DNA of 64,000 nt from Bacteroidota bacterium. Lineage in GTDB: Bacteria > Bacteroidota > Bacteroidia > Bacteroidales > ML635J-15. Each line of letters begins with the position of its first letter. Position 1 is the stretch's first letter. The position numbers were made by a program, and so were the translations under genes. Positions 18,026 to 26,706 of this stretch are shown one piece after another. The notes beneath the pieces were generated by a model, which did no database searches, had not been told where the DNA came from, and saw only the letters and a program-made list of their open reading frames with translations. The stretch is from assembly GCA_029558535.1 (NCBI GenBank), contig JAKQEK010000406.1, positions 1-64,000 of the forward strand, read 5' to 3'.

Positions 18026-18312
18026 TACTATATCTTAATCATTCAATCAAATACACAAATTAGCCGTTTATTAACCGTTAAGTAACGGATAAAAAAATGC
18101 AAAAATCAAAAACACAAATCACAAGAGGCGTTGCATTATATCTTTATTATTCAGTCGGTTACATAACATAGCCGTTTATTAACGGTTAAGTAACGGATAA
18201 AAAAAATGCAAAAATCAAAAACACAAATCACAAGAGGCGTTGCATTATATCGTTATTATTCAGTTGGTTACATAACATAGCCGTTTATTAACCGTTAAGT
18301 AACGGATAAAAA
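18026..18312. repeat. 108/109-bp tandem repeats carrying LytTR-like boxes
   Basis: Three partial or full copies of a unit whose core begins TAGCCGTTTATTAA start at 18061, 18169 and 18278. The spacer of about 38 bases (AATGCAAAAATC through ACAAGAGGCGTTG) occurs twice, and the preceding ATAT..TTATTATTCAGT segment occurs three times, first copy diverged. Each core carries GCCGTTTAT, then 11 bases on ACCGTTAAG, then inverted TAACGG. ACCGTTAAG fits the LytTR direct-repeat consensus [TA][AC][CA]GTTN[AG][TG] exactly. The array lies between menG and the LytS/LytTR gene pair, so these may be the regulator's own binding sites. Confidence 0.75.
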
Positions 18313-18378
18313 TATACACAAAACATACAATTTATAGTATTATTCTTATACCATTAGATAATCAATCTTTATTTTTAA

Positions 18379-24186: not shown

Positions 24187-24211
24187 AGTAAAATTAAAAT
24201 AAGCTGACGAT

Positions 24212-24424
24212 TTTGTCATGATTTTTTGAATCGGGTACTTCGAGACAATCATCCTGTGGGCTGATTCCTCAGTCCCCTGATTACCACTCGCTCTCACTCT
24301 GATTCTCTCACTGACTTTGCTGCAGGTTTTGTCATGATTTTTTGAATCGGGTACTTCGAGACAATCTTCCTGTGGGCTGATTCCTCAGTCCCCTGATTAC
24401 CACTCGCTCTCACTCTGATTCTCA
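24212..24424. repeat. 97-bp direct duplication
   Basis: Two copies at 24212-24308 and 24328-24424, starting 116 bases apart, differ by about one base (CATC against CTTC). They contain GGCTGATTCCTCAGTC and end ACTCTGATTCTC. No protein is encoded convincingly. The near identity points to a recent duplication. Confidence 0.85.
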
Positions 24425-24555
24425 CACTGCCAAAAATGCATACCAAAACCCATAAACAAATCCCAAAATCCAAGAAAACAAATTCCAAAATCACAATGTT
24501 AAAACAACGGCAATTATGTAGGGTTAATTCATGGTTCGACACCGCTTTTGTTCCC

Positions 24556-24591
24556 CGCTGCCGCGAGATTGCATCTCGTGGTTTTGCAGCC
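24556..24591. repeat. REP-like palindromic element, copy 1
   Basis: A hairpin in which CCGCGAGAT pairs with ATCTCGTGG around TGC (one G-T pair), flanked by GCTGC and GCAGC that can also pair. The same element recurs at 24679-24715. These are short structured intergenic repeats of the kind mobilised by TnpA-REP (RAYT) transposases; no such gene is in the window. Confidence 0.75.
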
Positions 24592-24611
24592 CAATGGATG
24601 CAACAAAAATC

Positions 24612-24680
24612 CTACTCAAACACCACCTTCTCAACCTTCACAAGTTTCCCCTCAACAAACAAATTACAAACATAAACACC
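24612..24680 (-). pseudogene. Remnant of a T9SS type A sorting domain
   Basis: The minus strand from 24680 to 24612 reads GVYVCNLFVEGKLVKVEK then VVFE and a stop. This is the usual end of a type A sorting domain (SGVYVvki..gg..v.kkl). Its upstream side runs straight into REP-like copy 2 at 24679-24715 and nothing further upstream continues the domain. It is the severed tail of a lost gene, or of an earlier version of the neighbour ending at 24742. Confidence 0.7.
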
Positions 24681-24715
24681 GCTGCCGCGAGATTGCATCT
24701 CGTGGTTTTGCAGCC
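24679..24715. repeat. REP-like palindromic element, copy 2
   Basis: Identical over about 35 bases to the copy at 24556-24591, with the same CCGCGAGAT/ATCTCGTGG stem and GCTGC/GCAGC outer arms. It interrupts the T9SS tail remnant at its Gly-Val-Tyr motif and lies 26 bases beyond the stop of the 654-residue T9SS protein gene. Confidence 0.75.
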
Positions 24716-24741
24716 AAAAGCTGCAAGTAAATTCTTTTAAG

Positions 24742-26706
24742 TTATTGCTTCTCAAAACTCCTCACCAAAACATTTCCATCCCCATCAGTTATCTTGATTT
24801 GATAAACCCCACTTATAAAATCCTTAACATTTATCACAGTTAGATCATTTGAAATTTGCAGCGTTTTTATAAGTTGACCAGCAGAATTATAGACTTCAGC
24901 ATTTTCGAACCGGTTGCTTCGACTACGCTCAGCCACCTGCATACTGCCAGGTGATTGAGCGAAGTCAAAATCACCGACATCAATATATAATAAATCCCTC
25001 GCCGGATTCGGATACAAACTCACAACATTTACAACTTCATCCGCAATCCCACTCCCACAATTATCATTAACAAAAATCTCTTTTGTAATTGTTTTACTTT
25101 CTCCATACGCATCAGTAACTGTAATGCTAATTTCTTGGGTTCCTGATGTGTGCGGAGTACAAAACTCAACAGGTTTAACAATGCACTGCCCCCATTCGTG
25201 GTTGCTGAGTGTGGCTTCGGTAATAGTTTCTTCAAAATAAGTTTCGCCTCCCCATGTCAGATTAATATCTGTAAGTCCAATCTCAACAGGAACAAATGTT
25301 GGCGGGTAGTAAATACTGTCAATTACCTGACCGGTACTGAATTCTATTGTATATGGCGCAGATTTACCGGCAATATGAACATAAACTTCGATAGTATCGT
25401 TCATGCAGATTCCTTCTGGGACTTCTTGTATTTCAAAGTCAAAGTTAAGTTCATCGGGTTCAATGTTACATAATCCATCCAAGCCAAGACTGTCGGTTTT
25501 TACAAGCCATGCTTGTTGGGGTGGATAGTAACCTTGACGATCATATTCATTACCATATCCTGCCATAATAAAGCCATTGTCACCAGTGTTTTTCAAAGAA
25601 ACTAACCATTGATAAGTGGAATTTGTATCAACCGCATAATAATCACGTCTCCAACAAATTTCACCTGACTCATTAACTTTTTGCAAAAATCCTCTTGAAG
25701 CCCCTCTGTGATCTCTGTTATTACCCAGTATATACAAATCTTCACCTTTATAAATCATAGATTTTAATTCACATTCCATAATAATCATATCAGGGCTTTC
25801 AATTTTACAATAGTTTTTGTAAAATCTTTCCCAAATAAGATTACCGCTATTATCAATCTTTCTAAGACAACCATCTAAATCATATTGTTCTCCACCTGTG
25901 CCCCATGTTGCAGCAGGATAAGCCCCACAAGCAAGAATATTAGAATCTTGTGTTTCAATTAAATCCCTAACAGATCCATTACTTCTTGAGTTATGCCCAA
26001 AAGCCTTTTCCCAAATAAGATTTCCGGAAGTATCGGTTTTAATTATGTACCATTTTGAATTGTTTAAAGGCGGTGAAAAACTTCCAGTTATACCGCCAAT
26101 TATTAAGTTGTTTTCATGATTTTTTAAAATTGAACCTCCACCCTCTACTATTGATCCGTAAGATTTTCTCCAAATCGGATTTCCATTTTGATCCATTTTT
26201 ACCAACATTGAGCTGTACCTATCTTCAGCTTCAATATAATCTTGTCCCACAATATAATAAAAGTTATCTGTATAAATTTGGTTTAAAGTTTGCTTCCAAT
26301 TATTATCTTCAAATACAATAAAATTTGCATCCAAATCAAAAGTGTTGTCAAATGTATTAATAAAAATACCAGTTTCACCAGTAATTGTGTTTTTTTTTGT
26401 TCCTGAAAAATATGGGAATCCGCTATCATCCTTAATATTATCCATACCTTCCCAAAGTTCATTAATCGCATTAGTATAGGTTTTCTTCCAAACACAGTTT
26501 CCGTTATTGTCAAGGTATCTTGATGCAAAACATCGGATTAAAAATTCATTACGGCTACCGGTAACCAAAATATAACCTGTATCAACATCAATTACTCCAC
26601 AGGTAATATGATTAAGAGTATCTGCCACAATTTTGTTAAAAACGATCTGTGAGAATGAAGTAGACCAGATTAGCAAAAACAATATCAGTAGTTTAATTTT
26701 TTTCAT
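24742..26706 (-). CDS. T9SS-sorted secreted protein with propeller-like region
   Basis: A 654-residue exported protein. The signal peptide (about 1-20) ends WSTSFSQ. Residues about 25-410 form a repeated beta-rich pattern (DNNGNCVWKKTY, DQNGNPIWRKSYG, DTSGNLIWEKAFG, DNSGNLIWERFY), typical of delta-60-like or SBBP propeller proteins. An immunoglobulin-like segment follows at about 430-545. The type A sorting domain starts VVSLYPNPARDLLYIDV and ends SGVYQIKITDGDGNVLVRSF. It is unusual: between DVG and FENAEVYNSAG it carries about 20 extra residues (DFAQSPGSMQVAERSRSNR) encoded by a palindromic DNA element. Function unknown. Confidence 0.85.
   Translation of the reverse strand: MKKIKLLILFLLIWSTSFSQIVFNKIVADTLNHITCGVIDVDTGYILVTGSRNEFLIRCFASRYLDNNGNCVWKKTYTNAINELWEGMDNIKDDSGFPYFSGTKKNTITGETGIFINTFDNTFDLDANFIVFEDNNWKQTLNQIYTDNFYYIVGQDYIEAEDRYSSMLVKMDQNGNPIWRKSYGSIVEGGGSILKNHENNLIIGGITGSFSPPLNNSKWYIIKTDTSGNLIWEKAFGHNSRSNGSVRDLIETQDSNILACGAYPAATWGTGGEQYDLDGCLRKIDNSGNLIWERFYKNYCKIESPDMIIMECELKSMIYKGEDLYILGNNRDHRGASRGFLQKVNESGEICWRRDYYAVDTNSTYQWLVSLKNTGDNGFIMAGYGNEYDRQGYYPPQQAWLVKTDSLGLDGLCNIEPDELNFDFEIQEVPEGICMNDTIEVYVHIAGKSAPYTIEFSTGQVIDSIYYPPTFVPVEIGLTDINLTWGGETYFEETITEATLSNHEWGQCIVKPVEFCTPHTSGTQEISITVTDAYGESKTITKEIFVNDNCGSGIADEVVNVVSLYPNPARDLLYIDVGDFDFAQSPGSMQVAERSRSNRFENAEVYNSAGQLIKTLQISNDLTVINVKDFISGVYQIKITDGDGNVLVRSFEKQ
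24917..24966. repeat. In-frame palindromic element inside a T9SS sorting domain
   Basis: Inside the gene at 24742-26706, CGCTCA (24926-24931) pairs with TGAGCG, CACCTG with CAGGTG, and the outer CTTC with GAAG, around the centre CATACTGC. The element keeps the reading frame and adds the low-complexity peptide AQSPGSMQVAERSRSNR to the sorting domain. The peptide does not belong to the family pattern, so an insertion is the best reading. Confidence 0.75.

Follow-up and report, generated by a model that had tools for sequence, protein, structure and literature searches.

How does a palindrome come to lie, in frame, inside the secretion signal of a bacterial protein? This question is raised by the window, a 64,000-nucleotide stretch of contig JAKQEK010000406.1 from a Bacteroidota bacterium whose 5.8-Mb draft genome (513 contigs, 88% complete) is related to Bacteroidales and Marinilabiliales bins. 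The minus-strand gene at 24742–26706, recognized from its open reading frame (ORF) and profile matches, encodes a 654-residue cargo protein of the type IX secretion system (T9SS). Its type-A sorting domain (PF18962; 24769–25017, minus strand, located by profile and model) carries, in the loop joining predicted strands 2 and 3, a palindromic element of 66 bp, or 22 codons, at about 24911–24976. We conclude that this stretch is very probably a non-autonomous mobile hairpin similar to repetitive extragenic palindromes (REPs) and their inverted dimers (REPINs), one copy of which inserted in frame into the β2–β3 loop. The element is multicopy, forms hairpins with compensated stems, occurs inside and outside genes, and is missing from this loop in relatives and in a paralogue of the same genome.

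Analysis of the element, to which no strand is assigned as a whole, revealed a REPIN-like inverted dimer of two hairpins, as judged from sequence, fold and copies elsewhere with the same layout. Hairpin 1 (24912–24937, plus strand) reads GGTTGCT-TCGACTACGCTC-AGCCACC, with one mismatch in its stem and the exact core TTCGACTACGCTCA at 24918–24931. Hairpin 2 (24950–24975, minus strand) reads GGTGATT-GAGCGAAGTCAA-AATCACC, with a perfect stem and a core that is one base off (TGAGCGAAGTCAAA). The two hairpins are thus oppositely oriented, each stem enclosing the 14-base core TTCGACTNCGCTCA, with one change in the second. The folding energy of the element strand as DNA is −15.7 kcal/mol (z = −4.4), which none of 200 shuffled sequences equalled; for the 17-mer CTTCGACTACGCTCAGC, the window contains a single match at up to three mismatches (expected, 0.02). 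The arms CGCTCA/TGAGCG and CACCTG/CAGGTG are present where a first-pass annotation had placed them, and sequence and fold confirm the palindrome; the extent given there, 24917–24966, was too short, and the proposed outer pair CTTC/GAAG is not nested, since the fold pairs TTTGACT with AGTCGAA outermost and GAAG (24961–24964) lies inside. The same annotation had the reading frame preserved, and the frame is indeed open through the element. With the insert, the C-terminus of the 654-residue protein still matches the type-A profiles, scoring 40 bits against PF18962 (cut-off, 27) and 25.2 bits against TIGR04183 (cut-off, 23). Compared with a relative whose loop is empty, the insert adds a net 17 residues. 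The genome as a whole contains 150 scored sorting-domain matches and 270 candidates.

The core is repeated widely, inside and outside genes, in this genome and its relatives, where the first-pass annotation had advised looking for it. It occurs exactly in 38 of 61 related genomes (the source genome included) and in 25 of the 26 belonging to the same genus, with up to 46 copies in one of these, while the pattern read backwards gave no match in any of the 61. Copy numbers reach 44, 46 and 97 in genomes G002, G007 and G050, and 48 in G220, which belongs to another family of the same order. The source genome has eight core matches at up to one mismatch; the match on contig C74 lies in a coding-like stretch with no surrounding palindrome and was set aside, and the others represent five element sites. 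Among 166 distinct sites collected from 32 genomes, 22 contain at least two exact cores, most frequently as inverted pairs spaced 29–41 bases apart. The family therefore shows both a short hairpin in many dispersed copies and, in the window and at these 22 sites, the inverted dimers known from REPs and REPINs.

Comparison of the gene family of the window protein revealed that the contents of the same loop differ from member to member. The loop holds the dimer in the window, a single hairpin in the paralogue at C392:33.5k, a longer related palindrome (element B) in the paralogue on C27, a nested form in G001 (L021), variants with TTCGGC in G015 and G010, and a palindrome in reverse orientation in G012 (L017). 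It is empty in the paralogue at C392:30.4k and in L018, L019, L020 and L204. The filled loop of G010 and the empty loop of G019 lie in closely similar surrounding sequence, and two further contigs of the source genome, C134 and C411, terminate inside an element B. Depending on the frame, the loop peptides read FDFAQ...AERSRS, SSTPLS, VERSRN, FDCAQ, ISTTLN or LSVVE; since the frames differ, the peptide is not the conserved feature. Orthologues thus either lack the extra residues or have a different palindrome in another frame or orientation, and none showed the same residues encoded by unrelated DNA. Together with the multicopy family, the empty loops and other palindromes of the relatives support, at the level of sequence, the first-pass reading of an in-frame insertion into coding DNA.

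Stems were compared across 172 unique copies. At the three positions flanking the core, the two arms pair in 94, 81 and 88% of the copies, as opposed to 59, 32 and 35% when the arms were re-dealt among copies, and none of 1,000 shuffles equalled the observed values. In G220 alone (41 copies with 25 distinct left 6-mers), pairing reaches 98, 90 and 95% versus 40, 35 and 45%, and the fixed core is enclosed, roughly speaking, first by three bases that are free except for their complementarity and then by a conserved GTCA/TGAC; a separate run with 111 copies gave the same picture. Pairing thus persists although the stems differ in sequence, which marks the elements as a true hairpin family of REP/REPIN-like type. 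In 20 contexts, elements are nested in the loops of other elements. One such context in G002, ACTTCGACTGC^GCTCAGCACAAG, is empty at L060, L064, L067, L077 and L088 and filled at L065, L089 and L090. The base following the outer TTCGAC is T in nine of the 20 nested contexts, placing the insert after GACT or shortly beyond. On contig C5 of G012 (L104 and L106), several hairpins are nested in succession: one TTCGAC encloses a second, which encloses a third, and their GCTCAGGGACCGAA tails match.

Stems that vary between copies yet pair, and hairpins nested in hairpins in those 20 contexts, would also be expected if no unit ever transposed and template switching during replication perfected pre-existing imperfect inverted repeats (quasi-palindrome correction), leaving co-varying stems. 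We consider this unlikely, as dozens of unrelated sites per genome share one invariant 14-base core arranged as the same inverted dimer, which requires copying between sites. An account of similarly low probability is that the palindromes are recombination points that shuffle sorting domains, the copies in loops being traces of such events. It is favored by a dimer of the source genome (C305:18298) fused to a sorting domain of which just the second half (hmm positions 15–67) is present, and by a sorting-domain tail in the window (24612–24680) that lies between two copies of another palindrome and resembles an intact end on C493. Such cases are few, however, and truncation by deletion accounts for them equally well.

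Most of the 166 sites (118) lie outside any ORF of at least 150 amino acids. Another 28 lie within some ORF of that length, several of these ORFs probably being spurious, and a custom profile built from 28 seeds assigned the remaining 20 to a sorting domain or its vicinity. Inspection of the labelled rows placed nine sites within sorting domains. Six of them occupy the loop that follows strand 2 (the window, C392 of the source genome, L017 in G012, L040 in G001, and L240 and L241 in G220), and three are directly before the last strand (L050, L073 and L080), L050 and L080 looking like one inherited case. L241 had been labelled merely "ORF" at a contig end, whereas L087, labelled "CTD", is located after the stop and L278 is likewise outside the domain. 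The filled loops at L040, L240 and L241 belong to three sorting domains outside the protein family of the window gene. Verified hosts without a sorting domain are an FGE-sulfatase (L026), PrmC (twice, L074), CinA (L081) and a reverse transcriptase (L279), and the host at L273 is a CHU_C protein with repeats. In G220, the core at L276 (contig C104) lies within an apparent signal peptide (FAFVMLSGVEAYAQ) of a protein without a Pfam match.

For an estimate of site density, G000, G012 and G220 were dropped, having been reached via sorting-domain hits, while G001 was retained although it had also been reached by orthologue search. Of the 113 sites left, four are inside sorting domains (three if L050 and L080 are counted once) and five inside other genes; these five comprise four Pfam-backed sites and L260, which has weak domain hits, and Pfam-less ORFs such as L057 are uncounted. 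If sorting domains make up about 1% of a genome, a share taken from the source genome, sites are roughly tens of times denser in them than in other coding DNA, an estimate from small numbers and a partial survey of G007, G050 and other genomes. An order-wide strict pattern (a YPNP motif with the core at 25–55 bases) in 393 genomes, five of them of the same genus, found three cases in two genomes and none when read backwards; these counts are a lower bound, the window copy itself being missed, and show that insertion into sorting domains is rare outside core-rich genomes.

Many copies are located directly downstream of genes, sorting-domain genes among them, as is the case for REPs, which would suit selection keeping the hairpin as an mRNA structure (for stability or attenuation). 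Against this, and against a secretion role of the peptide, the sorting-domain copies are read in at least four frames and in both orientations, paralogues and relatives manage without the element, and an Rfam search of four element loci matched no family; we regard selection of either kind as very unlikely.

Structural modelling of the last 127 residues of the window protein (alignment of eight sequences, mean pLDDT of 70.7) predicted a sorting domain of seven strands, whose Foldseek matches include the T9SS sorting domains of mirolase (8qb1), RemA (8gl6) and RgpB (7pq4). The model places the insert (fragment residues 51–72, with pLDDT below 50 at 54–68) between strands 45–50 and 73–79, that is, in the β2–β3 loop. 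The host domain is thus the same as in the type-A domains of PF18962 and TIGR04183, with this loop lengthened by a DNA element. Excerpts of a published study (PMC11285876) describe the β3–β4 loop and the C-terminus of the sorting domain as essential, an insertion in β5–β6 as tolerated, large length variation in the other loops, β2–β3 included, and a long β2–β3 connector in mirolase. In all sorting-domain cases seen, the inserts avoid the parts published as essential. Published work describes the sorting domain as removed by PorU in Porphyromonas gingivalis, and by analogy that of the window protein may be cleaved after secretion. The length of the β2–β3 loop is variable anyway, according to the same excerpts, but a coincidental palindrome in an ordinarily evolving loop is scarcely credible in view of the fold (z = −4.4), the core repeated genome-wide and the different palindromes in one loop, which also rule out a chance peptide or ancient protein evolution.

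We propose that copies of the REP/REPIN-like hairpin move in single-stranded form and would be handled in trans by a Y1/HUH-type enzyme. The Escherichia coli TnpA-REP cleaves at CT adjoining the hairpin, as stated in passages of PMC8266576, and an enzyme of this type acting on single-stranded loops would fit the position of the nested inserts. Five of the six core frames lack a stop codon; therefore, insertions whose length is a multiple of three can often be translated. The element may survive in the window protein because the β2–β3 loop would be dispensable for export and because, according to published work, such domains are usually removed once the protein has been secreted. Selection for the added peptide is improbable, since the frames differ among copies.

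Several observations weigh against this proposal. The core was found in none of 28 Y1_Tnp/RAYT loci (12 and 16 from two RAYT/Y1 match sets, a part of all matches, most taken with some 1.5 kb of flanking sequence) and in none of four RAYT regions of the source genome; a cognate RAYT flanked by the same hairpin was thus not encountered among them. G011 has 21 cores, no NF047646 match and one PF01797 match, and the best RAYT of the source genome (L152, C493:111450–111923) is flanked by a different palindrome. For the window copy, neither an exact empty site nor a target duplication was seen. In addition, the paralogue tree leaves 7 of its 12 inner branches open, a resolution too poor for separate insertions in the family to be counted. 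Failing a link to any transposase, we call the element REP-like rather than a proven member of the REPs or REPINs. With its own flanking palindrome, CCAGCGCGAGT...ACTCGCGCTGG, the RAYT at L152 has the classical REPtron layout.

REPs and REPINs, with their transposase RAYT (TnpA-REP) and intragenic GTAG and CGTC classes, share with the window family hairpins of 20–40 bp, inverted dimers, many copies and a mostly intergenic placement with some copies in frame inside genes. The window family differs in that its hairpins lack the foot tags GT[AG]G and CGTC, its stem is variable next to the core and no adjacent RAYT was found among the loci checked. Foot sequences vary, and GTAG appears only within the loop, for one base at its variable N (TAC 84, TCC 37, TTC 32, TGC 19); neither CGTC nor GACG is present in 24911–24976. 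Intragenic REPs preserving the frame have been described (PMC3733652, in part), with emphasis in section 15 of that source on DNA repair genes and no mention there of sorting domains. A passage of PMC6006769 reports REPs in frame within the transposase gene for subclass 2.4, which is abundant in Cyanobacteria and Bacteroidetes. Rickettsia palindromic elements (RPEs), reviewed in PMC10969869, are described in its excerpts as in frame and about 150 bp long. Like them, the window family has entered several unrelated genes in frame (sorting domains and FGE-sulfatase, PrmC, CinA and reverse transcriptase ORFs); the likeness is one of description, and here one secretion-domain loop was hit repeatedly. 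In-frame palindromes as such are therefore known from RPEs and intragenic REPs, and what is new is that elements have landed repeatedly in one loop of the sorting domain, that their variable stems are locked by pairing and that they nest in one another. The core strings (14–16-mers) did not occur in the open-access papers searched, and searches of open-access papers for palindromes together with T9SS, Bacteroidetes or in-frame insertion yielded nothing on the subject, the limit within which novelty is claimed.

Through these elements, insertion into a secretion signal has been tried repeatedly in nature, with extra peptides in β2–β3 or, in G002 and G016, just ahead of the final strand; no insert seen is in the experimentally essential loop. 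A palindrome family conserved in structure rather than in stem sequence, with no known enzyme, poses a concrete search question. For annotation, peptides such as AERSRS, LSVVE and FDYAQ in such proteins may be element-encoded. More tentatively, a family with a fixed single-stranded core and varying, always-paired stems might prefer to insert into single-stranded loops (those of its own earlier copies and, once selection has acted, a single dispensable loop in T9SS sorting domains), and might thereby diversify the secretion tags throughout a genome and perhaps also recombine them.

Other repeats and broken domains were observed as well. A tandem pair of element B, without assigned strand, occupies 24203–24429 of the window as 111-base repeats (24203–24313 and 24319–24429). 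The element B pattern at up to two mismatches matched the source genome 30 times, against eight times when read backwards, and its loosest matches are chance; arrays are located at C305:20256–20535 and 131056–131305. Another palindrome (GCTGCAAAACCACGAGATGCAATCTCGCGGCAGCG, minus strand) has two copies in the window, at 24555–24594 and 24679–24718, which enclose the leftover sorting-domain tail (minus strand, GVYVCNLFVEGKLVKVEKVVFE*), and an intact gene at about 36.5 kb on C493 has a very similar end and the same GCTGCAAAACCACGAGATGCAATCTCGCGGCAGCG palindrome. At C305:18298–18353 (L199/L013), the dimer with half a sorting domain has an in-frame stop inside the element. An 84-base repeat containing GCCGTTTATTAAC occurs three times, about 108 bases apart, at 18029–18329 of the window.
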